From positions 1 to 26,826 of IMG/VR virus record IMGVR_UViG_3300043602_000012: a stretch of 26,826 nt of DNA. One strand, 5' to 3'. Made by a program: the position numbers and the translations under genes. Shown in pieces: positions 2,076-23,833 of this stretch. Within the stretch, counting starts at the first letter, position 1, and every line of letters starts with the position of its first letter. Source of the DNA: a virus. Under the pieces are notes generated by a model. It searched no databases. It was given only the letters and a program-made list of their open reading frames with translations, and had not been told where the DNA came from.

Positions 2076-2290
2076 GTTTCATACCTGTACGTCGTTTGTT
2101 GACAGGGTGTACCTGGTAAATCCATATGCCTGTAGATGTTATAACGTTCTAGGCTTTCTTCGAGTTCATCTATTTCAATGAAGCCACTGACACTGAACTT
2201 TTTCATTAGTTCGTATCTAGTAACTGTATTACCCCCTGTAAGTTGACTTTTGACCCACATAGCTATAATAAGTTCTTCTAAGTCCTCCAT
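2072..2290 (-). CDS. Small helical protein of unknown function
   Basis: A 72-aa acidic protein, mostly predicted helix, with a middle part (TRYELMKKFSVSGFIEIDELEESLER) that could form a small helix-turn-helix or winged-helix unit. I do not recognise the family. It starts at a TAATG junction with the nuclease gene and ends in a four-base overlap with the Sak4-like gene, so its translation is probably coupled to both. Its place between a nuclease and an annealase suggests a helper or a DNA-binding regulator in the recombination set, but this rests on context alone. Confidence 0.65.
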   Translation of the reverse strand: MEDLEELIIAMWVKSQLTGGNTVTRYELMKKFSVSGFIEIDELEESLERYNIYRHMDLPGTPCQQTTYRYET

Positions 2291-3393
2291 TACCGGACCT
2301 TCTTAAATAGTGAGTTCAGGGTGTAAATATGGTCCTCACCACGAAACTGTCCCACACATGGCTGGCGATAGGCACAGTTGCCACAGACAAATTTACCAAC
2401 ACTAGGATAGAGTCGTAGGTTAGGGTCGATCATATCTTGTGCTTCTTCGGTAAGACAATCCCAAATATTAGCAAGTTCTTCATCAGTTTTAATAATAACA
2501 AATCGTTGATGGAACTTGGGAGCATCTTTGCTATTCAACCATGCTAGATACTCTGTATAACAACCGTCCTCGAAGGCTTGGGTGTCCATCTCTTGAACGG
2601 TACGTCTATAAATCTCTAGAGTTGTAGCTTGATTTTTACCTACGGAGAAAGCTCTCCCACCAGAAAGCCTCGAAAGGATAGCGGGGGGAGATGGGAAAGC
2701 TTTTCTATACTCCGCGTAGACAAATCCTCTTACGTCAATATTAAGTTGTCGCTGTAATGCGGCAGTGTAGCTACCAACTTGGTCATCTAGTTGTAAGAAT
2801 CCATCGTCGTAGGCAAGCTGACTACATGACTTGTGATCCCACACAAAGTAACCACCGTTAAGAATGTCCTCGACCAGCATGTCGATTCGACCGGCATAGA
2901 CAACGAGCTCATCGTCATGGTCCTGACCACATTCAGGAGAGATTTTACAGAGTAGCTGATTACCTAGTGCATCATATAGCGGTACCTCGAACGTCAGTTC
3001 TGTAGCTACTGGTCTAAACCACATATCACGTTCGGGGTGAATCTCCATAGCGTAATAAGTGAGCATACCTATACCGAGTTCAATACGCTCACTATAGTCG
3101 TCACCTTCAGCATTAGGGAGCGCACGCTGATTTGTGACTGTAAGATACTCTTCACGTTGTGTTTCGCATACAGCGATGAACTTTTCTACCGCATACTGTA
3201 ATTTTTCGACAGGCTGAGTAGAGTCCCACCGTTCGGGGCAGTAGAAATCTTCCAAACCAGCATGGAATGCTAAGCCGAATTCCAGAGGTTTAGGTGTTAC
3301 TTCCGGAACATAACCCTGTCTATAAGCCCAATTCCAACGACGTCTACAACTTCTAAAACTTCGACGTGCTGAAGTGCGGATCTCGTGAGGCAT
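2290..3393 (-). CDS. Cas4/RecB-like PD-(D/E)XK exonuclease with probable Fe-S cluster
   Basis: The 367-aa protein shows the RecB-nuclease motifs in order: FGLAFHAGLE with H44, the AGRIDMLVED strand with D171, WDHKS with D186 and K188, and the QLDDQVGSYTAAL helix with Q205. Cys16 near the N-terminus and C337-x2-C340-x5-C346 near the C-terminus match the split four-Cys arrangement that holds an iron-sulfur cluster in Cas4 and AddB-type nucleases. It probably resects DNA ends for the Sak4-like annealase encoded downstream. The start is supported by AAGGGA eight bases upstream. It is the first gene behind the promoter at 3442-3470. No cas1 or cas2 is nearby, so a CRISPR role is not suggested. Confidence 0.85.
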   Translation of the reverse strand: MPHEIRTSARRSFRSCRRRWNWAYRQGYVPEVTPKPLEFGLAFHAGLEDFYCPERWDSTQPVEKLQYAVEKFIAVCETQREEYLTVTNQRALPNAEGDDYSERIELGIGMLTYYAMEIHPERDMWFRPVATELTFEVPLYDALGNQLLCKISPECGQDHDDELVVYAGRIDMLVEDILNGGYFVWDHKSCSQLAYDDGFLQLDDQVGSYTAALQRQLNIDVRGFVYAEYRKAFPSPPAILSRLSGGRAFSVGKNQATTLEIYRRTVQEMDTQAFEDGCYTEYLAWLNSKDAPKFHQRFVIIKTDEELANIWDCLTEEAQDMIDPNLRLYPSVGKFVCGNCAYRQPCVGQFRGEDHIYTLNSLFKKVR

Positions 3394-4147: not shown

Positions 4148-5851
4148 TTATGGAATGGGGACCGAAGGAGCATACTGTTTAACCAATGCTCTTAGTTCCC
4201 TGAGGGCTTCCCACAGTACTCCGATCAAGTCTCTATCTGTGAGACCTAATCCCCCCGGAATACTAGGGTCTTGAATGACTAGTTCGGGAGCAACAAGTAA
4301 GATGTCTTCGGCAATAGGCCCGAAGTGGGGATTCATCTTTGGAGCTTGGGGAGCGTCGATCAAAGTTTCTGAAGGCCCTTTAATCAGACGACCGTTATCG
4401 TCTCGTTCTTCGGGTAGATGTTGCTTTATCTTACGACGAAGAGGAACAGGTTCGCCTTCCACCCATTCGTCGTTGTAGTTCCATGACTTAGACTCAACCG
4501 CTCCAATAACAGCGAGTGCTTTTCTCGTGCCGAACTGAATGGGCTTCTCACCCTTCTTCTGCGCCCGAGAAGAAGAGTTGAAGAACGATTTAGTACCCCC
4601 ACCAGCAGCGTTCTGCACAATCATACCCGTACCGATCCACACAATTTGCGTATCAAAGTTGGCAGAATACAGTGCTGGTTCTCCACCACCCCCACCACGG
4701 AAGTACAAAGTGCGAGAAGCAATCTGAGTGTCGTTACCATCCGCGTAAGTGATGATTACTTCACCGGCACCATACTTGTCCATGCCACCAATAAAGACGT
4801 CTCCACCCCAGATATTGAGTCTATCGAAGAGACAAGAGGTAGCGGATGGAACTTTACCAGTTGTACCATTGTAATAACTAGTGAAAGCTTCTGCGGGATA
4901 GACACCACTACGACCGCGGTTGGTTCCCGAACCCTCGATAATAATTGCTGCCGTACCTCCGGGAGCAGGATCGGCATAAATACTTCCGTAGATAGTTGTA
5001 CCCTGATAGAACCGCGCCTCAGCAGGAAAGGTTCCACCAGGGTTCATCACAATACGGGCACCAGTGGGAGCAGTAACAATTTCACCCATGAAGTATGCCG
5101 AACCCGTAGCGGCATTAATCCAGAACGTACGAGTAACACCATCGGCGAGAAAGGCTTGCAAACCCGCTGTAGGATGCATCTCGACCCGAGCACCTGTCGC
5201 TGTACCCGCAATGATGCGAGTGGCAATGACCAAGTCAGCAGCTAACTTTGCTGCGGTAATAGCTCCCGCGATAATCTGATTCGTATCGATGGAGTTAGCA
5301 GTGATATCGGGACCGGCTACCTGAAGGGGTGTCCCACTACTCGGGGTAGAGAAGCCACTCTCTTTCAACGAGTAGTTGACACTGGTCAGGGTGATGACAT
5401 GGGACGTATACGGCAATGGAGCAATGATGAAGCTGCCGAGTCCATTGGCAGCGACAATCGTACCCTCTAGCGTCCGTACCGTGGGGTTAGCGGCAAGGGC
5501 GCTATACACATTCAAATGGGAGAAGTCAGCAGGCCAACTACTGCCATCCACCGATCCGGTACTACTGACACTGAGTCCAGCTTTGGTCGGGACGACAATA
5601 GGTGCGTTAGGTACCTTCGGGGGAACGGGATTGTTGACACTGATCGCACCAACGGTCCCATCGTTCTGCATCCCGACCGACCCACGATAGACACCATCGG
5701 CGTCATACATGGGGATGCTCGTATTATCGAGGGAGCTGTAACGGAGCTGCGCAGTACTTAATGCATTCTCTACACGAGCAATACGCTTCTCGTGTTCGGT
5801 AATCCAATTAGAAATCTTAGTGGTTTCGGTATACGGGGGAGCAACCACCAT
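4148..5851 (-). CDS. Tail fibre / receptor-binding protein with S74-like chaperone domain
   Basis: The 567-aa protein begins with a short coiled coil (about residues 12-36), then a Gly/Pro/Ser-rich region, then the ITANSIDTNQIIAGAITAAK segment (182-202) common in phage fibre and baseplate proteins, and beta-rich repeats starting GARVEM and GARIVM. The C-terminal 150 residues look like an intramolecular chaperone of the peptidase S74 type: SSSRAQKK (426-433) in the place of the Ser-Lys active site, then HFGPIAEDILLVAPELV and a helical LIGVLWEALRELRALV tail. Such domains trimerise fibres and often cut themselves off. ATG directly follows the upstream stop (TAAATG). Host-surface binding is inferred from family and position. 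Confidence 0.8.
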   Translation of the reverse strand: MVVAPPYTETTKISNWITEHEKRIARVENALSTAQLRYSSLDNTSIPMYDADGVYRGSVGMQNDGTVGAISVNNPVPPKVPNAPIVVPTKAGLSVSSTGSVDGSSWPADFSHLNVYSALAANPTVRTLEGTIVAANGLGSFIIAPLPYTSHVITLTSVNYSLKESGFSTPSSGTPLQVAGPDITANSIDTNQIIAGAITAAKLAADLVIATRIIAGTATGARVEMHPTAGLQAFLADGVTRTFWINAATGSAYFMGEIVTAPTGARIVMNPGGTFPAEARFYQGTTIYGSIYADPAPGGTAAIIIEGSGTNRGRSGVYPAEAFTSYYNGTTGKVPSATSCLFDRLNIWGGDVFIGGMDKYGAGEVIITYADGNDTQIASRTLYFRGGGGGEPALYSANFDTQIVWIGTGMIVQNAAGGGTKSFFNSSSRAQKKGEKPIQFGTRKALAVIGAVESKSWNYNDEWVEGEPVPLRRKIKQHLPEERDDNGRLIKGPSETLIDAPQAPKMNPHFGPIAEDILLVAPELVIQDPSIPGGLGLTDRDLIGVLWEALRELRALVKQYAPSVPIP

Positions 5852-7423
5852 TTACGTACGACCTCCATAGCTAAACGTGGAAGCTAACTTGACCTCCAAA
5901 TCTACTCTATCAGTAGACGGATGGTAGGTGATAGAGACGATCCGATAATACTCGCCATAGATTCCGCTAAGCCAGGGAACATCTACATCGATCCAGATAT
6001 CATCGCCCACATCGTAGGTACCAAACGGGGCGTTTTCGTGATATGCGTCCAGAATAACAGTGTTAATTTCAAATGCTGCCGTACGACGTCGCAAAAGTTC
6101 TTCACTCGCTATAGAATTGGCACGTTCTACGGTAGTAATACTCTTGTCCGTGACGACCGCTGCCTTACGGACACGATCACCAAAGGTTCCACCCGCATAT
6201 CCACGGATAGCATCTCGACCTTCACCAGCACCGATGACGTAAACGTTACTGGCATAGTTGTTAGGTGTTTCCTGTACGGGGATAGTTGCCAGGATATTCT
6301 CTCCGTCAGCAAAGCGCAGGGTATCCTTACGTGTTCCTACTCTAGGATAGTAGAAGTCGATATACTTCTCGACGTTAGTCTTAGTACTGTTCCACTGAAC
6401 ACGTTCCATGTAGTCGATGGAAGATTCGGTACAAAGCTTGTCAATCTCGTCACCACAGTTAGTAGCATCCCACCACATGAGTTCGTATGGCTTAGCTGCA
6501 ACTGGTTGGGCTTCGGGCTCAAGAAGCTTCGTAAGATATACCACTACTTCGTGAGCATTGAGTACGTCTGTAGAGTCGTATCCAGCCACTAGTTCATCGT
6601 TATAAAGATTTACGTAGTCAGGACAACCTGCCCATGTCCAATCGCTATTGATAGCCATACCGTTTTGGAAGCGCAAACGAATATCGTACGCGGCCTGCAA
6701 TTTCTGTGGTACACCCTCATTGGTAACAACTGAGGTAAGAAAGTTAACTACTGCGGTAACGTTGAAAACATCCGAAGAGGCATACTGAGCCAGTAGACTG
6801 TCGTTATTATCACTTACAAATCCAGGACAATACGTCCAAGTCCAGTCTTCGAAGACATAGAGACCGAATTGAACTCGAAAGCGGATATCCATTGCCGCTC
6901 TATTTCGATCTGATATGAGCGAGGTTGCTGCTCGTGCAGCTTCGCCGATGCGTACTGGCGTTGTCGTAGTCGCGACGACGATACCAAGGTTAGATTCCGG
7001 CTTGGACTGCACATGTGTCCAGATAGACCGGATCACATCGGATGGGTCTACTTGAATACCTGAGTACTCGACCTCATAAAGATGGTAGTGGGGGAGCGCT
7101 GAGAAACCTTCGCAGTCAAACGTCATCACTGCGTCGTTGTACTCAGGTGGCAGTAAGATACCGGTAGCTCTGATCTCGTTATCAATCTCGACATGAAAGT
7201 AGAACGAGTAAGGATCAAGTAGCAACTCTTGAATGCTGACGATTTCTGGCTTAAAGCTACCCCTCATCGTTGTAGGACCGCTCATAATACGAGTGTATTC
7301 AAAGTCGTCACCGACCGGGACATCCCAATCGACAACCTCACCTGTCAGGATTTTTTGTGCGATAACTCTAAAGGGATGGGTAATAGGAGGATTCGCGTAT
7401 CGGGAGACAACGGCTGAGGACAT
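5852..7423 (-). CDS. Tail-tip protein of the gp37/tail-hub type with an inserted tandem repeat
   Basis: The 523-aa protein has the outline of a siphovirus tail-hub protein: an N-terminal domain with the ILTGEVVDWDVP and RIMSGPTTMRGSF segments, a helix VDPSDVIRSIWTHVQSKP, then YELMWWDATNCGDEIDKL, a core with YVIGAGEG, and a C-terminal beta domain ending YRIVSITYHP. Residues about 160-310 appear as an insertion holding two copies of a 68-residue repeat. The gene starts in a TAATG junction with the preceding tail gene and ends directly against the fibre gene. It probably forms part of the baseplate or adhesion tip. Function of the family is known only by position and remote similarity. Confidence 0.75.
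   Translation of the reverse strand: MSSAVVSRYANPPITHPFRVIAQKILTGEVVDWDVPVGDDFEYTRIMSGPTTMRGSFKPEIVSIQELLLDPYSFYFHVEIDNEIRATGILLPPEYNDAVMTFDCEGFSALPHYHLYEVEYSGIQVDPSDVIRSIWTHVQSKPESNLGIVVATTTTPVRIGEAARAATSLISDRNRAAMDIRFRVQFGLYVFEDWTWTYCPGFVSDNNDSLLAQYASSDVFNVTAVVNFLTSVVTNEGVPQKLQAAYDIRLRFQNGMAINSDWTWAGCPDYVNLYNDELVAGYDSTDVLNAHEVVVYLTKLLEPEAQPVAAKPYELMWWDATNCGDEIDKLCTESSIDYMERVQWNSTKTNVEKYIDFYYPRVGTRKDTLRFADGENILATIPVQETPNNYASNVYVIGAGEGRDAIRGYAGGTFGDRVRKAAVVTDKSITTVERANSIASEELLRRRTAAFEINTVILDAYHENAPFGTYDVGDDIWIDVDVPWLSGIYGEYYRIVSITYHPSTDRVDLEVKLASTFSYGGRT
6515..6913 (-). repeat. Tandem 68-residue protein repeat in the tail-tip gene
   Basis: Residues about 171-235 and 239-303 align without gaps at an offset of exactly 68. 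Shared positions include DIRxRxQxG, DWTWxxCPxxV, NDxLxAxYxSxDVxN and VVxxLT. The DNA copies have diverged clearly, so the duplication is not recent. Each unit has one Cys and a conserved Trp pair, suggesting a small independent fold. I do not recognise the domain. Confidence 0.85.
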
Positions 7424-8493: not shown

Positions 8494-9423
8494 TTACCAA
8501 GTTGTTGAGGCATACTGCCATCTAGTTTCTAGAGTAGCTGTACCTGTTGGGTCAATGCCGCGTAGTACAACCTGATGTGTACCCGGGGGAAGTGTCTGCA
8601 TAGAAATACGTCGAGAGCTCTGAGTGAACTTACCTGCTACGTTAATGTATCCGTTCTTGTAGACCCCACGACTCCAAGGACGAGGATCAATCTCTAAGGT
8701 CTCCCCTACAGCTAAGACAAAGTCTGCCGCTGTCTGAATGGTGTAGTAACCTACCACTTCAACAGCGGGTGCTGTAATAGGACCAATAATCTTACTTCGC
8801 ATCCATGTTTCAGTATTTCCATCGACGACAACGATATCCTCTTGGGTACTCTCGGCTACTGTATTCAGAGGAAACGCTAGAGGAAATATGAAACCACCAG
8901 AGTTACCGGGAGAAATAGTAATACTGTTAAGATGCACAGTATCTTCATAGAATTTATGATCAATAGTTCTGAAGTCAGCAGTAACAGGAATCCAACCCGA
9001 GCTATCCACACGCCCAGTAACAGCTTCACAATGATTTGGCCGCCCGTAAACTACTAGATCAGCTCCATGCCTATTCATTCGTAGCTGAGAAACGTCACCA
9101 GGAGTCAGCCGAGAAGCGCCGACGAATGTATCTTCGGTGAACCAAGCAGCTTCCAATTCCTTATAGAGTGTGTGAGCACTAGGGATTTCTGTCTTGTTAG
9201 TTTTAATGTTGATGTCAAACGTAATCATTCGACCGTTGAGGTAGTCTCGACCCATCCTCATACCATCGGAACGAGCGTTCGGCTCATCATTGATTCTTAA
9301 TTCGGGTGAACCAAAGTTGACCTGTTGGACGTGGATTTTGGTACCTCGACCAAACGTGACTCCGTCACCCTCTAGGAGAGGAGGATTGATTAATTCATAT
9401 CCGAGATTAGGTAGGGGAGCCAT
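8494..9423 (-). CDS. Distal tail (Dit-like) protein
   Basis: The 309-aa protein directly follows the tape measure gene through a TAATG overlap, the usual place for Dit. The N-terminal part (residues about 20-165) has the pattern of a Dit ring domain: GDGVTFGRGTKIHV, the RSDGMRMGRDYLNGRMITFDI stretch, a helix TLYKELEAAW and then WIPVTADFRTIDHKFYED. The C-terminal part (about 185-305) looks like a galectin-like or carbohydrate-binding beta sandwich, with TLEIDPRPWSRGVY and TLPPGTHQVVLRG. Dit forms the hexameric hub joining tail tube and tip. The assignment rests on position and this domain order. Confidence 0.8.
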   Translation of the reverse strand: MAPLPNLGYELINPPLLEGDGVTFGRGTKIHVQQVNFGSPELRINDEPNARSDGMRMGRDYLNGRMITFDINIKTNKTEIPSAHTLYKELEAAWFTEDTFVGASRLTPGDVSQLRMNRHGADLVVYGRPNHCEAVTGRVDSSGWIPVTADFRTIDHKFYEDTVHLNSITISPGNSGGFIFPLAFPLNTVAESTQEDIVVVDGNTETWMRSKIIGPITAPAVEVVGYYTIQTAADFVLAVGETLEIDPRPWSRGVYKNGYINVAGKFTQSSRRISMQTLPPGTHQVVLRGIDPTGTATLETRWQYASTTW

Positions 9424-12400
9424 TATTTACGATACCTTCCCTTGCCAACCTGACGAACACTGAAGCCTACTTCTTGTGCTAGGTCCTTAACACTCGCGCC
9501 GTTAGGTAGAACAATAGTCCCAATCTTTACTCCGGTAGATTCAGACTCAGCTACGATGGCTCGAACTAGTTCACGGATAGACTCAGGATCGGGACTACCC
9601 ATTCGTTGCAACTGCTGGTCGTTAAAGATAGCCTCTCGACGACCGGTCTCATTGAATGCCGACTCACCAGGATCGAGATAGCCACCCTTACCATATCCCC
9701 CGGAACGGTTATATGCGGCTGGCAGTGAACCATAACGGGCGAGTGCGTAGTGCATTGAAGCTAGAATGTTTGCAAGAGGATCCCAAATGTCGTTAGGTGC
9801 CCGAGCATCTCTAAATGATTGGAATGTAGGATCGATAACCTGCATCAGACCCTTAGAAGGAGTTCCACGACGCGCATTGCTGTCCGTCAGGTTAATTGCA
9901 CGAGGATTTCCGCCAGACTCCTGATTCATTCGACGTAAGGTGATACCTGAAAGTGCAGTACCAAGACCCATCATTCCAAGTGCTTGATTAACAATTCCAG
10001 ACCATTGCTGAACACCCGCAGCAGCATTCCCACCCGCACTGCTGGGAGCGTTAGGGTCACTGGTAAACATTGCTGCTAGTTTACCCTTTAGTTTTTCGAA
10101 GACTATAGGGATAATCTTCTTCGGAATTTGAGTGATTGCGTTGCCCATCGGAGAACCGTTACTCGGCATGTCACCAAAGTTTAGTAAGCCATTAAGAAGG
10201 TCTGCAACTTTAGTACCAAACATATCCCACATGGAAACCATGGCACCGCCACCAGAGCCAGAGAAGTTAGCACCGGCAGTGAATGTTCCACCTACTGTAG
10301 GCAAAGAGAAGTGTCTATTACCGAACATTCCAGCATTAGCACCTAAAGCACGACCACCAACTTCGGGACCGTGACCACTACCGCTTTCCACGTTGGTTCC
10401 TGAGAGAGTCCCTGCCATGTGTCCGGGGTTACCTTTAAAATATCCAACACCAAATGCTGAAGTTAATCCTGGGGACCAGCCAGGCCATGGTGCAGAACCT
10501 GTAGTACCGATGCGTCGGTAAGGTGAGAATCCCATGAGGGCATTAGCAATGGCTGAAATATAACCACTACAGTCATAGCCACCAGGTCCTACTCCACCCC
10601 AAATGTAAGGCTTACCTTGTTGAGCTTTCGCAAAGTTCATCCCCGCAGCAATACCACCTTGAGCAAATCCAGGGTATGCATTGACGTTGTTTGGTCCTCC
10701 CGCAGCTTGCACGGCTTCAGGTTGACCCTGTCGTAAAGCTTCGAGGAAGTGCATGTGTTTACGTGCCCGCTTAGCAGGCATGATGTATTCATCTTTGGAA
10801 ACACGAGCTACAATACTGTCACTAGTTCCGGTACCCGGTCCGTAGACTTGCCCACCCTCAGCATATCTAGGCATTTCTGGAATAGGATTGGCCTTGAGAC
10901 CTTCGGCTCCGATCCATCCCATGACAGTGTTCCAACCATTAAGGATGCCCTTGTTCAAGACAACGCTGATAACCCAGTTAATGGGGTCTCTAATTGTATT
11001 AGCAATACCGGCCCAGAATGACGTCCACTCTGCACCTATCTTCAGTCTCTGCCTAGTAAACTCATCGGCAACTCCTTGCCAGAAGTTGTGCCATCCTGTC
11101 GTGAGGGCTAGGTCCCACTCATTGTACTTTTGCTGAGCCCAATTCCAAAACTCGTTCCATGATCCTAGGATTGTTGTCTGGCCGCCATGTTGATCCTCAA
11201 GTGTACCGCCCCAGAATTCTACCCACTTAGTGCGAATAGTTCCCATGGCTCGGTCGGCACCGATATCAAAGGAAGTCCAAAAAGTCTCCCATGCAGTCAA
11301 CGATTCTGAACCGGCAAGACTCTGATCCTGCTTTCTACCTTCCCAGAATAGCCGCCAGCTAGTCGTTAATTCTGCGTCCCACTCATTATACTTTGCCTTC
11401 ATTTCATCAAGGTTCATGCCAAAGATACCAGCAATAACCGTCCAAAAACCCTCAGAAATAGTCGCGAGGCCATCACCCATCTTCTGCCAGTCGCCTGTAA
11501 AGACACCGGCAAAGAAGAGCAAAACACCCGACATACCAAGAAGTATGCCGCCGAGAATATGAAGAGCGCCTTCCAGAAGATGAATAAAAATCTTACCAAA
11601 GAACTCTAGGAACCATCCTGCAATTGGTGCAATGGCTGTGTAAAATGCTAGAACATTGGGGATAACCTGTTCGGTAATAATTTTGGCTAGGTCTTTAAGG
11701 GCGGGGAGAATCTTCTCTTGGAAGACGTTCCACAAATCCTTGAGGACAGGAAGGATATGTTCTTCGATAGCAGCTCTAAATTTGTCCCATGCCGGAATAA
11801 TGTGTTCTTCAAATCCAGTCTTTATTTGGTCGAGGATTGGGTTAAGTTTCTCTTTAAAGGAAGTAGCAAGGCCATCGATACTACCCTTAAGAGAATCAGA
11901 GTTAGTTGCTGCATCACTGAACAGGAATGCGAGACCAGCAATTACTCCGACGGCTATACCAACAGGTCCAGTAGCCCCTATCAGAAGAGCTGCAAAGAAT
12001 CCTGCGATACCGATAGCAATAGCTCCGAGCCATTCGGGAGGCAGTTTATTCAGACCCTCAAAAATCTTCCCGAGTACTTCGGCTATCTTTCCACCGAGAG
12101 GAGTAAGTGCCATAGCAAGTCGGAAGAGGAATTCGACAACTTGACTAATAAGGTACCAAACCTTGGGAAGGTTATCCTTGACCATCTGAATGAATCTTTG
12201 GAACTCGGGGTTTTTGCCTAGTTCTTCCGTCCAATGAGCAAAGTCCTTCATACCTTGGACGAGTTTATCGAGAAGCCATTGCCCAAGGGGCATAAAGGCT
12301 GTTACTAGATTCATTACCGCAATGGCAGCATACCCAGCAATGTCACCCAGCTTAGTAATAACAGGGACGATGTTGTCCCGCATCAAATTAACAAAGGCTT

Positions 12401-13247
12401 GCCAATGAGGACTACCAAAATACTTGTCTAATTTCTCACCAATAATAGTAAAGGCACGACTGGTCGCATCAACGAGAGGTCGTAGCGTATTAATAGCAGT
12501 AGTAGCAGCCTTCAATCCCGCTGCCAACGCAAAACCAACACCGGTTTCGGTTTGTTTTTGTAGCCTCTCGTAGGCATCGTTGAATCCCTTTAAAGCATTA
12601 GCTGCTTGTCGTAGACCAGGAGGGAGTTTATCTATTTCCTTCTGACCAGCTCCTACCGCTGTTTTGATCTTATCAAAGGCAGGTATCGCAACCGCAGCAA
12701 ATGCCGCAACACCTATACCAGCGGTCACAAAGACAGCAGTGAGTGCGCCGACCAGACCGATGACTCCGGTAAAGGCTACGGCGGCAAGAGGCAAGACAAG
12801 AGGCAGTGTCGCCATGAGTATGCGAGCACCGCCATTAACACGGCTAAATGCTCTGCTACCATTGTCCCCCATAGAGCTTAATGAGGAACCTGATCTGTTG
12901 GCTAGATTAATTAAGCTACTCAGTTGCTGATTAGAGTTGCCTGTGTCTACCCTAGCCTTAGCTGTATAGGTAGCCATACCGAACTTGCGTAGGTCTACAA
13001 CTAACTTGTCAAAACTGAGCCTATCTACGTTGACCTTAGCCGTAGCAGCTCTAGAGTTTTTGGTAAAGTTTTGAAGGTCTCTGGTCGCCTGATTAAGACT
13101 GGCCCTATCAACATCTACCTTAACTGTAACGACAAAACGTTCACGGGCTAAGCTACGAGCTTGTGCCCTCGCGGCTGCAATCCCGGCGGTAAAAGGATTT
13201 CGATCCAACCGAAGCGTAGCGTCTATGCTGCCAGCGTTAAAAGCCAT
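9423..13247 (-). CDS. Tape measure protein with NlpC/P60-like and lytic transglycosylase domains
   Basis: At 1274 aa this is the longest gene and sets tail length. The N-terminus is helical; strong hydrophobic stretches lie at about 145-190, 405-445 and 555-585. Helical repeats lie at 480-530 and 631-745. Residues 797-820 hold the GGQVYGPGTGTSDSIVARVS motif common near tape-measure C-termini. A peptidase-like domain (about 868-985) has YDCSGY with Cys893 and candidate histidines 943 and 959, as in NlpC/P60 proteins. A transglycosylase domain (about 1082-1180) has RRMNQESGG with catalytic candidate Glu1110, then KGLMQV and AYNRSGG. These would open peptidoglycan during DNA injection. The ATG is preceded by GGGCGGTG. 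It is separated from the chaperone genes by a plus-strand HNH gene. Confidence 0.93.
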   Translation of the reverse strand: MAFNAGSIDATLRLDRNPFTAGIAAARAQARSLARERFVVTVKVDVDRASLNQATRDLQNFTKNSRAATAKVNVDRLSFDKLVVDLRKFGMATYTAKARVDTGNSNQQLSSLINLANRSGSSLSSMGDNGSRAFSRVNGGARILMATLPLVLPLAAVAFTGVIGLVGALTAVFVTAGIGVAAFAAVAIPAFDKIKTAVGAGQKEIDKLPPGLRQAANALKGFNDAYERLQKQTETGVGFALAAGLKAATTAINTLRPLVDATSRAFTIIGEKLDKYFGSPHWQAFVNLMRDNIVPVITKLGDIAGYAAIAVMNLVTAFMPLGQWLLDKLVQGMKDFAHWTEELGKNPEFQRFIQMVKDNLPKVWYLISQVVEFLFRLAMALTPLGGKIAEVLGKIFEGLNKLPPEWLGAIAIGIAGFFAALLIGATGPVGIAVGVIAGLAFLFSDAATNSDSLKGSIDGLATSFKEKLNPILDQIKTGFEEHIIPAWDKFRAAIEEHILPVLKDLWNVFQEKILPALKDLAKIITEQVIPNVLAFYTAIAPIAGWFLEFFGKIFIHLLEGALHILGGILLGMSGVLLFFAGVFTGDWQKMGDGLATISEGFWTVIAGIFGMNLDEMKAKYNEWDAELTTSWRLFWEGRKQDQSLAGSESLTAWETFWTSFDIGADRAMGTIRTKWVEFWGGTLEDQHGGQTTILGSWNEFWNWAQQKYNEWDLALTTGWHNFWQGVADEFTRQRLKIGAEWTSFWAGIANTIRDPINWVISVVLNKGILNGWNTVMGWIGAEGLKANPIPEMPRYAEGGQVYGPGTGTSDSIVARVSKDEYIMPAKRARKHMHFLEALRQGQPEAVQAAGGPNNVNAYPGFAQGGIAAGMNFAKAQQGKPYIWGGVGPGGYDCSGYISAIANALMGFSPYRRIGTTGSAPWPGWSPGLTSAFGVGYFKGNPGHMAGTLSGTNVESGSGHGPEVGGRALGANAGMFGNRHFSLPTVGGTFTAGANFSGSGGGAMVSMWDMFGTKVADLLNGLLNFGDMPSNGSPMGNAITQIPKKIIPIVFEKLKGKLAAMFTSDPNAPSSAGGNAAAGVQQWSGIVNQALGMMGLGTALSGITLRRMNQESGGNPRAINLTDSNARRGTPSKGLMQVIDPTFQSFRDARAPNDIWDPLANILASMHYALARYGSLPAAYNRSGGYGKGGYLDPGESAFNETGRREAIFNDQQLQRMGSPDPESIRELVRAIVAESESTGVKIGTIVLPNGASVKDLAQEVGFSVRQVGKGRYRK
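11013..11357 (-). repeat. Six WxxFW motifs at 22-residue spacing in the tape measure
   Basis: Trp residues 631, 653, 675, 697, 719 and 741 each begin a WxxFW motif (WRLFW, WETFW, WVEFW, WNEFW, WHNFW, WTSFW). The spacing is exactly 22 residues each time. In addition KYNEWDxxLTTxWxxFW occurs twice, offset by 88 residues, or four periods. Regular aromatic spacing in tape measures of Gram-positive siphophages is known and is thought to mark contacts along the tail tube. Confidence 0.9.
11658..11810 (-). repeat. Fourfold 15-residue Glu-Pro repeat in the tape measure
   Basis: EEHIIP, EEHILP, QEKILP and TEQVIP place a Pro at residues 485, 500, 515 and 530, exactly 15 apart. Each is followed by a hydrophobic helix-like stretch. 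The copies suggest short helices broken at regular intervals, distinct from the 22-residue Trp repeats further on. Confidence 0.75.
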
Positions 13248-13265
13248 CAGTAAACACCGCCCAAA

Positions 13266-13294
13266 TTGACAACAGTAAAGGGATGGTTTAGAAT
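13266..13294 (+). promoter_or_regulatory. Consensus promoter for the plus-strand HNH gene, giving a leaderless mRNA
   Basis: TTGACA (13266-13271) and TAGAAT (13289-13294) are separated by exactly 17 bases. Transcription starting seven bases past the -10 box would begin at 13301, the A of the HNH gene ATG. No Shine-Dalgarno sequence lies at a useful distance from that ATG, which fits a leaderless message. Leaderless mRNAs are common in actinobacteria. Confidence 0.75.
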
Positions 13295-13300
13295 GGCCTT

Positions 13301-13810
13301 ATGGGAATGAACAGAGGAACTAAAACCGCTAGATACTTTCGTGGTACTCCCGAAGAACGTTTTTGGCACTATACAGATATCACGCCTGACCATTGGTGGT
13401 GGACCGGCTCGGTTCTTAAAGACAAGGAAGGGAATCCTACTTATGGTTCCATGGGTGTTGGTTGGATTCCTGAAACAGGTAAAAGTCTTGTAGTTCTTGC
13501 ACATAGGTTCAGTCTTGAACTTTATACTAAAGAGTCTATTGAGCCTGGACTTGAAGTTGATCACTTGTGCAAAGTTAAACTTTGCGTTAATCCTAGACAT
13601 TTGGAAGCAGTTACTAGGTCTATTAATGTACTGAGAGGGGAGGGTCCGAATTCTCAAAGAGTGCGTCATGCTGCGCGTACGCATTGTATTAGAAACCACC
13701 CCTTGAGTGGTGACAACATCAGATTTGACAGGGATGGTTGTCGAGTCTGTAGAACATGTATGCGGGACCATCAAAGGGAGTTCAGAAAGAGAAAGAGGAG
13801 CAATCTTTAG
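13301..13810 (+). CDS. Free-standing HNH homing-type endonuclease on the opposite strand
   Basis: The 169-aa protein has a Trp-rich N-terminus (HWWWTGS), then a classical HNH core: AHRFSLELY with His68, EVDHLC with Asp87-His88, and CVNPRHLEAV with Asn97 and His100. A C-terminal Cys/His cluster (C129, H133, C147, C150, C153) and a very basic tail suit zinc and DNA binding. It is the only clear gene on the plus strand and lies between the tail chaperones and the tape measure, 53 bases from the divergent tape-measure start. It has its own promoter. This is typical of a mobile endonuclease that cuts alleles lacking it. A second ATG two codons on is a possible alternative start. Confidence 0.92.
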   Translation: MGMNRGTKTARYFRGTPEERFWHYTDITPDHWWWTGSVLKDKEGNPTYGSMGVGWIPETGKSLVVLAHRFSLELYTKESIEPGLEVDHLCKVKLCVNPRHLEAVTRSINVLRGEGPNSQRVRHAARTHCIRNHPLSGDNIRFDRDGCRVCRTCMRDHQREFRKRKRSNL

Positions 13811-13842
13811 CAAAGTATTTGCCATGATTGCCCCTCTAACTC

Positions 13843-14492
13843 TTAACCGAGTGTTACATTTTCAGTCTTGTAGTTCGCATTCGGGACTAGCTCTAGAATG
13901 TCACCATCACTAGTACCAAAGTCAGACGGTCGGTCTTCGGGTCTTCCACCAGCTTTAACTCTAAGATACTCTTGTAATTCTTCCATATACATCCATTGTT
14001 GCCACCATGGTAATTTCTCCCACTGATCCACTGTTAAGTTAAAGTGCAATAGTGCCCGGAACCACTCTATACGCTTTTCAGGCGCCTCTGAGAGTTGCTG
14101 GTACCGGACACTGAGACTTCCGGGTTTGTTAGGTTACCAATCAGATAGCCGAAGAAGCCTTGGAACGGCCGATAGGGGAGTGCCTCAAGTACTTCTCTGC
14201 TAGGATTACCAGCACATAGATCAGTAAGTGCATCTAGCAATGCTTCCTGTAGCTTGACGAACTTCTCTTCGTCATCAATAGTGTTCATCGTCTCGGCAAC
14301 ATCGTCAACGTCTAGTTCACTCGTGTCGTCAGAGTCCTTGAGACCCAACTCTTTAAAGGTCACGTCAATACTCTTTAGCAGCTTGTTCACGGCAAACCGC
14401 GGAGGTTCAGGTACTGTGCCCTTTGGGCCACCCCATTTGGTGAAATCATATTCGAGTTCACCACCAATGGTCTCTTCGCTAAACTTGGGCAC
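13843..14492 (-). CDS. Tail assembly chaperone, long frameshifted form
   Basis: This is the fusion product of 216 aa made when ribosomes slip back one base at 14121-14127. The first part is shared with the short form; after the slip the frame reads PGSLSVRYQQLSEAPEKR and continues through WFRALL to LTVDQWEKLPWWQQWMYMEELQEY and a polar C-terminus. No stop occurs between the slip site and the downstream frame. The LPWWQQ motif is typical of the second chaperone frame in actinophages, where the long form binds the tape measure and recruits tail tube protein. The downstream frame has no ribosome binding site of its own, only a TTG at 14049, so expression by frameshift is likely. Confidence 0.85.
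14067..14492 (-). CDS. Tail assembly chaperone, short form
   Basis: The 141-aa protein lies between the major tail protein and tape measure genes, the standard site of the tail chaperone (gpG-like). It starts at GTG 14492, with AGGAGG four bases upstream; there is no in-frame ATG near. An acidic, helical middle (DVDDVAETMNTIDDEEKFVKL) and the FQGFFGYLIGNLTNP segment near the end fit the family. It ends at TAG shortly after the frameshift site, so most ribosomes would make this form. It acts in the cytoplasm during tail assembly and is not expected in the virion. Confidence 0.85.
   Translation of the reverse strand: MPKFSEETIGGELEYDFTKWGGPKGTVPEPPRFAVNKLLKSIDVTFKELGLKDSDDTSELDVDDVAETMNTIDDEEKFVKLQEALLDALTDLCAGNPSREVLEALPYRPFQGFFGYLIGNLTNPEVSVSGTSNSQRRLKSV
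14121..14127 (-). promoter_or_regulatory. -1 ribosomal frameshift slippery heptamer
   Basis: On the minus strand the sequence is A AAC CCG in the zero frame, a perfect X XXY YYZ heptamer (AAACCCG). Slipping back one base gives AAA CCC and opens the downstream chaperone frame. The distance from the GTG start to the final stop (650 bases) needs exactly one -1 shift to stay in phase. Confidence 0.8.
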
Positions 14493-14511
14493 AGTTCCTC
14501 CTAAGGTATGT

Positions 14512-15114
14512 TTACAGTCCTGCGAGGTTGTAGTCCCGAATGATAAGGTCCTCAATCGGGGAAATAAGCCGGAAAGAACAAGCGTAAAGACGCTGTGTCT
14601 CAGCTCGTCGGTAAGAAGTCTCGACCTCTGCAACAGAAAGAACGTCTAGGAATAGGACTCGGCGTGCCATGTTGTCTGCGTTCTGTGCCTCTAGACCAAG
14701 AGTAAGATGCTGAAGGTCCTGAGTAACTCTCAGTTCACGATAGCCAGGAACACCCGATGCAGGTGCAACTGTAGTAATTGTACCGCCACCATAAGCAACA
14801 CTCATGGTTTCCAAGTCGTCCTGGGAAAGAGTAATCTCAATACGAGGGTCAAGAGTGTTTACTGCAACGTCTACGGGGTTAACCTGCTCCTCAATACTAA
14901 TGTCGGTAGTTTCACGAGTAAAGCGCATTGTAGCACCTGACTCGGAAGCTCCCAAAGGCTTCCACAGTACGTTTCCTGTACCAGCAACCGACCAGTCTCC
15001 ACCAAGCGCGAGAGTGTGTGACGGAAGGACTGCGGCAGCATCATACGGTCGGTACCATAGTGCGGCCATACCACGAACAATATTCTTACGTGTATAGCGA
15101 GGAATAAAGGCCAT
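14512..15114 (-). CDS. Major tail protein
   Basis: The 200-aa protein starts in a TAATG junction and precedes the tail chaperone genes, the usual place for the tail tube subunit. The sequence is beta-rich, with RIEITLSQDDLETMSVAYGG and the late FRLISPIEDLIIRDYNL strand, resembling tube proteins of siphophages. It would polymerise into stacked hexameric rings around the tape measure. No Ig-like C-terminal domain is present. Length and context fit well; the fold itself cannot be verified by reading. Confidence 0.85.
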   Translation of the reverse strand: MAFIPRYTRKNIVRGMAALWYRPYDAAAVLPSHTLALGGDWSVAGTGNVLWKPLGASESGATMRFTRETTDISIEEQVNPVDVAVNTLDPRIEITLSQDDLETMSVAYGGGTITTVAPASGVPGYRELRVTQDLQHLTLGLEAQNADNMARRVLFLDVLSVAEVETSYRRAETQRLYACSFRLISPIEDLIIRDYNLAGL

Positions 15115-20895: not shown

Positions 20896-22317
20896 TTATC
20901 CAAACTTCTTGTTTGCCACTACTGATTCAGTACCGAAAGGCTTAGTTCCTACGGTAGAAGAGTTACTTTGAGTTTGATTCTTGGCACCCGCAACCATGTT
21001 AGTTGCCTCATCTACAGCAGCACCCATCTGTAGTAGCGGACTACCATTGACCTTTATGTCCTTGGCAACCTTTCCTGGATCAAGCTCAAGTAGAGTTGCA
21101 GTCCGAGTTGTAAGTTGGTCATAGAACTCAACTGGGACCTTTGCTCCTGTGGTAGCAACCTTTGCGAACATGTCGAGCACTGCTTGCTCGTTCTGTTCAC
21201 TAAGGGGTCCGAAGGCAAAGCGGGGAACGGGCGCGTTTGGTCCAAAGTTATACCTAATCAACGGTCCTACGACATCGTTGGTTAGTTGTCTCGCCATATC
21301 ACGGGCAACCATTCTACGTGTACGTAGGAAGAGTTTACCTTGCGATTCAGACAGAGCATACGAACCCTTACCCTCCGCTGCCTGCGAAGTGAGGTCCATA
21401 AATCCGGCAAGAATACTGTTGGACATTTCAGAGTCGAGGAATCTAATCGCCTCGATGAATGATTCGGCACCCTTACCACTACTTTCGAGCACACTGAAAG
21501 TAGACTCACTGTTCATACCCATCAGTCCACGAGAACGCAGGGTAGACATAAGCTTAGCGTCTGCTCGTGCCTGTAGTTCGTCCTGATTTTGAACGATAAC
21601 CTTAGGGAGTGAAGTGTTCTCTAGGAACTGATACCAGAGCCAACGAATCTTACGCTTTGTAATGTAGCACCAGTATGGCAGCTTCATCTGAGAGAAGCCA
21701 AGCAGGGGATCACGCCATGTTCCATGGACGTAGACAAATGCCTTCTTTGGCCTAATGTATTTCCAGTCACCCTGACTAGTAGTACGGGAAGCAACATGAG
21801 GATAAGGATCCCAATGGACAGGGAGCTGTCTAAACCCTTGCGGCTCACCAGTCTTAGCATCTAGAGCAAGTTCACAAGTCTCCGGGGGACGCCACGCAAT
21901 CTTGTCGTAAACTACCATGTTATCGTCGTTAATCTTAAAAACTTTCTCGAAATACGCACGACGATGAGTAAATGCCATCGTCATCTGTGAGACGAGCTGT
22001 TCAATCGTTGTCTTTGGTCCACCTTGATGCGGTAGTGCGGTCAAGGCATCATAGATAAACTCTGCCTCTCCGCTATCACCCTTAGCAGGATCAATCTCCC
22101 ACCCAGCAGCAATAATAGGGTAACTAAGAAGTTTTTCAATAGACGCAGCTTTACCATCGGTATCAAGCATCTCCTGATAACGAGGTACATCTAACTCCTC
22201 GTATGCGAAGACCCTACCCTTATCGTAACCACCAAAAGGACTATCATCCCACGAAAAAGAACTACCCAACTCGTTCATGGGTGGTAGCTTTTCGCTTACC
22301 TCTTCATCATTAACCAT
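20896..22317 (-). CDS. Portal protein, DUF935 / Mu gp29-like
   Basis: The 473-aa protein has the marks of gp29-like portals: the DTDGKAASIEKLLSYPIIAA segment near residue 52, AGWEIDP, KIAWRPPETCE, then the helical LWYQFLENTSLPKVIVQ and EMSNSILAGFMDLTSQAAEGKGSYAL stretches. The C-terminus is polar and probably flexible. It overlaps the large terminase gene by eight bases and starts at ATG with GGGAG ten bases upstream. It forms the dodecameric ring through which DNA enters and leaves the head. Confidence 0.9.
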   Translation of the reverse strand: MVNDEEVSEKLPPMNELGSSFSWDDSPFGGYDKGRVFAYEELDVPRYQEMLDTDGKAASIEKLLSYPIIAAGWEIDPAKGDSGEAEFIYDALTALPHQGGPKTTIEQLVSQMTMAFTHRRAYFEKVFKINDDNMVVYDKIAWRPPETCELALDAKTGEPQGFRQLPVHWDPYPHVASRTTSQGDWKYIRPKKAFVYVHGTWRDPLLGFSQMKLPYWCYITKRKIRWLWYQFLENTSLPKVIVQNQDELQARADAKLMSTLRSRGLMGMNSESTFSVLESSGKGAESFIEAIRFLDSEMSNSILAGFMDLTSQAAEGKGSYALSESQGKLFLRTRRMVARDMARQLTNDVVGPLIRYNFGPNAPVPRFAFGPLSEQNEQAVLDMFAKVATTGAKVPVEFYDQLTTRTATLLELDPGKVAKDIKVNGSPLLQMGAAVDEATNMVAGAKNQTQSNSSTVGTKPFGTESVVANKKFG

Positions 22318-23833
22318 ATGGAACCAACTCCCATTCTACGGTTGGTTCTTCCCAATCTACAGTGGCCGATGTGTCATTGTCATCAGGATCGGCCCAGTGG
22401 AAAACACCAGAACTTGAATCTAGAGCGATGCTACCTGAGCTAGCCCAAAACGCTAAAGCAACAGCATCTCCACGGTCGGGGGATCTACCAATGCGTTTCT
22501 TAATGTCCTCTTTTGACTCAATGAGTATCTTACCCCCACTGACTACCGACCATCGAGGCGCAGATAAGTCGGTAGCTAACTGGTCATCAGGAGGCAGACA
22601 AATAGTACTGCCACGAGAAGGGTCAAGTAACTCGCGTAGGCGCCATAAAGACGCAGCGCGGAGGTTATAAAACTCTTGTTGTCCACTTGCATCCTTAAGG
22701 TGAGTACGACTACCACCATTAAAGGGGAGCATGTGATATCGTCCGCGCCGTGCCTTATCAAAGACACCTGCTCCAACGCCGTTAACGTCTACGACACCCA
22801 AGTCGCGAGCTTGATTGAGCTTTCCCATGAGTAGATCAGCGGTCTGCTGGGTATCTACTTTAGGCATGACGTTTATCTCAGTACACACATCACCATAACG
22901 ATGAGCAAACACAGTTTTATCCCTGCCGAAGCGGGCAATGTCAGCTCCGACAATGTGTCTGTCCGAATAATCGGGCGTACCATTATTCTCTTCTTTCCAA
23001 CGTGACCAGCGTTCCTGGGCACGATAAATCCAACCAAGAGGAATGACGGAAAACTCGTCCACCTCAGGAAATTCACCCAAGACCTTAGAGGTCCACATGG
23101 GTGTATCTCTACCAACCTCAGACTCCATCTCATTAACCCACTCCATACTCGTGAGTTGGTCTGAGACGTCTAGAGATACCTTCTCACCAGTGAAGTTAGG
23201 TGAGTCAAAAACGGAAATCTTGATTTGGTGCCAGTCGGAGGAAGGTTTACATACCTTCGCAAAGTAAGAGGAAGGATCGTCAGGGTTCCCGATGGCCAAA
23301 ATACGACAGTATTTGCCAGTAGTAATGGCAAGCGCGGCGATCCATAGCCACTCGTCGATACCACATGCTTCGTCAATGATGACGAGTACGTACTTTCTGT
23401 GTAGACCTTGAAAAGCATGACGGTCGTAATCCTGTGGTTTACGGCCAAATCCAACGAGCGTATCACCAATGAGCCAGTTATCTGACCTCTGGACTTCACC
23501 TTGTAATCTACCCTTCCGGTGAAGCTTTCTAATGTCCTCCCAAAGAATTGCATGAACCTGACGTGCGCTAGGCGCAGTACTTACAACTAGTGTCTCTTCA
23601 GGTGGGTGTGTTGCGATCCAATGAACTGCCGCTGTAGATGCAACGAATGACTTGCCGACACCGTGACCACTTTTAACTGCTACTTTCTTATATTCACCAA
23701 TAGCTCTAATGATTTCGCGTTGCTTCGACCACAGGTCAATCCCGAGTGTCTTTTTAATCCACTCCATAGGATTCTTAGGATTAACCTGGTCATCTAGAAT
23801 CTTACTTGCATACTCAAAATCAATAACGCCCAT
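22310..23833 (-). CDS. terL: Terminase large subunit
   Basis: The 507-aa protein has an ATPase half with Walker A SGHGVGKS (55-62) and Walker B VLVIIDEA (149-156), followed by RILAIGNPDDP as coupling motif. The C-terminal nuclease half shows GADIARFGRDKTV (Asp298), VVDVNGVGAGVFD (Asp349) and SPDRGDAVALAFW (Asp453, Asp456), the acidic residues of the RNase H-like fold. Length is normal. It starts in a TAATG overlap with a 39-aa Cys-rich gene, with GAGG seven bases upstream. It cuts the concatemer and drives DNA into the prohead. Confidence 0.97.
   Translation of the reverse strand: MGVIDFEYASKILDDQVNPKNPMEWIKKTLGIDLWSKQREIIRAIGEYKKVAVKSGHGVGKSFVASTAAVHWIATHPPEETLVVSTAPSARQVHAILWEDIRKLHRKGRLQGEVQRSDNWLIGDTLVGFGRKPQDYDRHAFQGLHRKYVLVIIDEACGIDEWLWIAALAITTGKYCRILAIGNPDDPSSYFAKVCKPSSDWHQIKISVFDSPNFTGEKVSLDVSDQLTSMEWVNEMESEVGRDTPMWTSKVLGEFPEVDEFSVIPLGWIYRAQERWSRWKEENNGTPDYSDRHIVGADIARFGRDKTVFAHRYGDVCTEINVMPKVDTQQTADLLMGKLNQARDLGVVDVNGVGAGVFDKARRGRYHMLPFNGGSRTHLKDASGQQEFYNLRAASLWRLRELLDPSRGSTICLPPDDQLATDLSAPRWSVVSGGKILIESKEDIKKRIGRSPDRGDAVALAFWASSGSIALDSSSGVFHWADPDDNDTSATVDWEEPTVEWELVPYG

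Follow-up and report, generated by a model that had tools for sequence, protein, structure and literature searches.

How is a gene expressed when it points against the operon that surrounds it, and how did it come to lie there? These questions are raised by the window, that is, the whole 26.8-kb virus contig analysed here, which belongs to a siphovirus-like phage. The minus strand carries about 32 genes, in the order terminase, portal, capsid, connectors, major tail protein, tail chaperones, tape measure and minor tail proteins, followed by exonuclease and single-strand annealing genes. One HNH endonuclease gene (13301..13810, plus strand, 169 aa) lies alone on the opposite strand, between the tail chaperones and the tape measure. 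A first-pass annotation of the sequence had given the same ORF, strand, coordinates and place, and had called it the only plus-strand gene against about 40. It is indeed the sole gene with a family match among the plus-strand ORFs searched; the figure of 40 is too high. Our preferred reading, to which we give a probability of roughly 0.75, is that this is the gene of a free-standing HNH homing endonuclease: it would have entered the tape measure gene at its start codon, facing the other way, and would carry a leaderless promoter of its own.

The neighbours of the HNH gene are intact by homology. The tape measure gene (9423..13247, minus strand) matches PHROG tape measure families, and its start codon is the putative point of insertion. 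The tail assembly chaperone ORFs (13843..14633, minus strand) consist of G and a second-frame extension; they are found at the same position in related contigs (L009-L021), and their chaperone function is assigned by position. The capsid and tape measure proteins have distant kin in phages of Gordonia, Rhodococcus, Corynebacterium and Streptomyces. A DNA-level search of phage records found no close relative of the window. When viral contigs were scanned with the proteins, the tape measure and the terminase had one match each; the capsid scan was productive.

The protein is an HNH endonuclease with an intact active site. It matches PHROG 826 (E 2e-35) and Pfam HNH_3, and contains the HNH catalytic core with its zinc-binding cysteines; alignment against 28 relatives showed that the catalytic and zinc residues are intact. 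An AlphaFold model has a mean pLDDT of 91.7. The closest PDB fold to this model is I-HmuI (probability 0.99, E 3.7e-3), a partial match with a TM-score of 0.34; I-PpoI follows and is weaker. A sequence search of PDB chains gave no match. I-HmuI-type genes reside in group I introns, and this arrangement was considered and rejected: an Rfam search of 12800-14800 gave no match up to E 1, so intron RNA was not found around the gene. It stands alone, with no intron or intein.

Comparison with relatives indicates that the gene is an insertion. In related viral contigs, whose capsid proteins (MCP) are 44-75% identical to that of the window, the genes for major tail protein, chaperones and tape measure follow each other as they do here. 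In the relatives with an empty site, the chaperone stop and the tape-measure start are 18-23 nt apart, vs 595 nt in the window. The empty-site relatives comprise seven contigs (L009, L010, L011, L012, L014, L019 and L021) from five distinct lineages; several further related contigs are near-copies. The HNH gene was absent from the chaperone-tape measure junction in every related contig inspected there. The first-pass annotation had proposed this comparison, and the possibility that all relatives carry the gene at this site fails on the five lineages without it. The inserted segment is put at 578 bp (13248..13825), with ATGGC at both presumed borders. On the tail strand, the left junction reads TAA GAGTTAGAGGGGCAATC ATGGC AAAT... 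and the right junction reads ...GGGCGGTGTTTACTG ATGGC TTTTAACGC. Removal of the 578 bp between the ATGGC copies leaves a 17-nt spacer with a Shine-Dalgarno sequence, which resembles the spacers of the relatives; insertion was therefore probably at the tape-measure start codon, the most likely site on the junction sequence.

This junction has been invaded elsewhere. The Cluster O mycobacteriophages Corndog, Firecracker and YungJamal carry an HNH gene where the tail chaperone meets the tape measure; as in the window, the insertion is at the tape-measure start codon, and empty alleles exist in the sister phages Catdawg and Dylan (PMC4351075). The position of the tape-measure ATG is occupied by ACG in the Corndog-type phages, whereas the window has ATG. 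For the Corndog-type HNH gene, PMC4351075 does not describe a reverse orientation, a leaderless promoter or a transcript of its own. Those features have a separate parallel in Corndog gene 53, which, like the window HNH gene, is reverse to the structural operon and has a predicted leaderless SigA promoter (PL2); its product is a putative DNA-binding protein, unlike the window HNH (PMC4351075).

The upstream region of the HNH gene contains a predicted promoter, TTGACA-17-TAGAAT (13266..13294, plus strand; hexamers at 13266-13271 and 13289-13294). It matches the sigma-70/SigA-type consensus at 11/12 positions. TAGAAT ends 6 nt before the HNH ATG (13301), and there is no Shine-Dalgarno sequence ahead of this ATG. 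Hexamers, spacer, gap and missing Shine-Dalgarno had all been described correctly in the first pass. A -10 hexamer placed about 6-7 nt before a start codon which lacks a Shine-Dalgarno is the layout of leaderless genes, and it is present here at the sequence level. The predicted transcription start is the A of the ATG, at 13301. The RNA structure around the start does not exceed that of shuffled sequences in strength (z 0.08), so a Shine-Dalgarno-sequestering hairpin of the T4 style is not indicated. No terminator-like site was found on the plus strand between the end of the HNH gene and 19.4 kb; the transcript may therefore run on across the chaperone genes as antisense RNA. Any effect of such RNA on the chaperone genes or the tail message is speculative.

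The best surviving alternative is that the HNH gene is mobile but the promoter-like sequence arose by chance, the gene being expressed by read-through or, as a dying insertion, not at all. An 11/12 site has a chance of about 1e-5 per position and strand, an expectation of 0.55 sites per window with both strands counted; for this reason the hexamers alone prove little. What is unlikely by chance is that two hexamers, both near consensus, should lie precisely in front of the sole plus-strand gene: for the four spacings before one given start codon, simple multiplication gives about 4e-5. A dying insertion is also at odds with an intact HNH ORF in which all catalytic residues are present. Further evidence on a chance origin comes from other HNH genes.

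Contigs of relatives were collected by four viral scans, one genome scan and one genome search, yielding 288 distinct HNH loci. A gene was scored as having the leaderless layout if a TAnnnT hexamer that agrees with TATAAT in at least 4/6 positions ended 5-8 nt ahead of an ATG or GTG in frame. The layout was present in 17/40 antisense vs 10/184 sense HNH genes, with orientation taken from a simple custom gene caller, so that some antisense calls may be wrong. The histogram of hexamer positions peaks at 6 and 7 nt before the start. The idea arose from the first survey, which gave 10/21 vs 4/104 on rescoring. Loci fetched after the idea had formed replicated the difference (7 of 19 antisense vs 6 of 80 sense, p 0.003); both this set and the discovery set come from one family and one search tool. 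Shuffling the upstream regions of the antisense set gave 2.1 +/- 1.4 hits and a maximum of 9 in 2000 runs, against the 17 observed; in the sense set, the 10 observed are near the shuffled mean of 5.6. An extended -10 (TGn) is found in 5/17 of the antisense HNH promoters (chance 0.003). Control genes from the same loci rarely have the layout: 2/46 antisense non-HNH genes, 2/73 divergent first genes and 12/679 sense genes. On the first of these counts, which may include spurious calls, leaderlessness was rejected as a property of every antisense gene in these phages.

The motif is absent by the set criteria in 23/40 antisense HNH genes, which leaves some room for a chance promoter in the window; the class-wide peak at 6-7 nt and the negative controls argue against it, and we regard it as unlikely. 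The empty alleles, the intact active site and the recurrence of the layout far above controls favour what the first-pass annotation had proposed, a mobile HNH gene that carries a leaderless promoter of its own.

According to the preferred reading, the HNH cassette would bring a sigma-70/SigA-type promoter, and transcription from the A of the start codon would give a leaderless mRNA. The cassette would consist of roughly promoter plus ORF, and would require no phage promoter, transcript or ribosome-binding site. With a promoter of its own, and a leaderless message that can do without a ribosome-binding site, the gene could work in either orientation. Expression may occur throughout infection or in lysogeny, independent of the phage programme. 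In related phages without the insert, the conserved start of the tape measure gene is the presumed target; the enzyme would cut or nick it, and recombination would then copy the cassette into that phage.

The layout is found in a variety of settings. Leaderless translation is best documented in GC-rich actinophages. The low-GC loci L310 and L094 carry the layout, which is thus not confined to that group. An antisense HNH gene on a 38% GC contig (L284, 2785) has TATAAA-6-ATG and escapes the strict TAnnnT rule, so the counts may be low. PHROG matches place antisense HNH genes in structural modules: next to major tail proteins (L106, L138) and next to minor tail proteins (L037, L083). Another lies between terminase and portal (L108); its hexamer is farther from the ATG, and it was left out of the count. 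The leaderless label is scattered across the HNH tree, which is poorly resolved; one recent ancestor is therefore not indicated, and there is no support for placing the leaderless antisense HNH genes in one clade. In Clavibacter phage CMP1 (end2; L022, 2504), TACTAT ends 6 nt before the ATG of a sense HNH gene, overlapping the end of a helicase gene; this is a possible leaderless promoter within a coding region.

It seems fairly probable that leaderless antisense HNH cassettes form a recurring class of minimal mobile gene, made up of promoter hexamers and an ORF only. Each ingredient of the window case has precedent; what merits further attention is the pattern across the class. A few searches of open-licence papers found no description of such a class, and with this restriction the lack of reports is weak evidence of absence. 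If the layout holds for the whole class, it would explain how reverse HNH genes persist inside late operons, and such genes would be expressible early or in lysogeny. It would also supply a simple rule (TAnnnT, 6-7 nt, ATG or GTG) with which they can be found and tested. Antisense transcription in phage structural operons may then exceed what annotation suggests.

In the best-studied phages, free-standing homing endonucleases are mostly promoter-less and depend on their landing site for expression (PMC2988022). The seg and mob homing endonucleases of T4 are intergenic, free-standing and beside their presumed target, like the window gene. Unlike it, most have no promoter and use upstream phage promoters; others have late promoters with hairpins that sequester the Shine-Dalgarno, and antisense transcripts are mentioned merely as a possibility in the review of these enzymes (PMC2988022). 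The hidden HNH of the ShiLan domain resembles the window gene in lacking a Shine-Dalgarno and in having a host-direction frame free of stops, and leaderless initiation has been proposed for it (PMC11855218). It differs in lying on the same strand within a methylase gene, with no promoter of its own reported (PMC11855218). The window gene is antisense and intergenic, and was rejected as a member of this type. HNH genes reverse to the capsid operon, and similar to the window in that respect, are found in Microbacterium phage SadLad (gene 28, MW924641) and in Austelle (gene 12, ON970575). Unlike the window gene, the first has a strong Shine-Dalgarno and the second no clear leaderless promoter. 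These two HNH genes occupy the same place, between the protease region and the major capsid hexamer gene (L026 3001-3474 and L027 2866-3579, respectively).

The strand opposite the HNH gene raises a further issue. A 192-codon ORF (13247-13825, minus strand), missed in the first pass, spans the whole HNH gene and is codon-aligned with it. It begins with a Shine-Dalgarno and ATG beside the chaperone stop and ends in the TGA of a TGATG at the tape-measure start. The HNH gene lacks TTA, CTA and TCA at its 21 Leu/Ser positions, giving 0 antisense stops vs 4.8 expected (P about 0.005 with phage codon usage). The 192-codon ORF may itself serve the phage: the insert would have captured the original tape-measure start signals (Shine-Dalgarno and ATGGC), and ribosomes starting there would read the 192 codons antisense to HNH and re-initiate at TGATG, so that tape-measure translation stays coupled. 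The open frame from end to end and the missing stops are what one would expect from this, and in Corndog, too, tape-measure initiation is disturbed by an HNH gene inserted at this junction (PMC4351075). However, antisense stops are not depleted in other antisense HNH genes (86 observed, 69.7 expected), and a general upkeep of open antisense frames in such genes was rejected on this count. By our estimate, roughly 3-4% of comparable stretches in the phage's own genes contain an open run as long as this, and the tape measure has a possible Shine-Dalgarno of its own (GGGCGG). No relatives of the 192-codon product were found and no fold is predicted for it, the latter being weak evidence from a single-sequence fold; it is probably not a folded protein. 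Ribosome passage of this kind is doubtful, a little more so than a chance promoter; it is compatible with the homing reading of the HNH gene. Elsewhere in the window, antisense open runs of 252 and 234 codons (4148-7423, plus strand) lie codon-aligned inside two tail genes; they are probably composition effects.

That the HNH protein is a domesticated packaging nuclease, or serves some other phage function, is very improbable: terminase-adjacent HNH proteins are packaging components (Kala 2014, as cited in PMC4351075), but this gene adjoins the tape measure in reverse orientation, with the terminase large subunit (22310-23833) 8.5 kb away and in the opposite direction, and related contigs lack it at the same site.

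Other candidate regulatory elements were found on the minus strand of the window. TTGACG-17-TATAAT (3470-3442), an 11/12 match, lies about 50 bp ahead of the exonuclease gene (2290-3393) and probably serves the recombination module as its promoter. A strong terminator-like hairpin of 15 pairs with a T-run (24651-24618) lies upstream of the structural genes and separates them from small genes at 24.7-26.8 kb.
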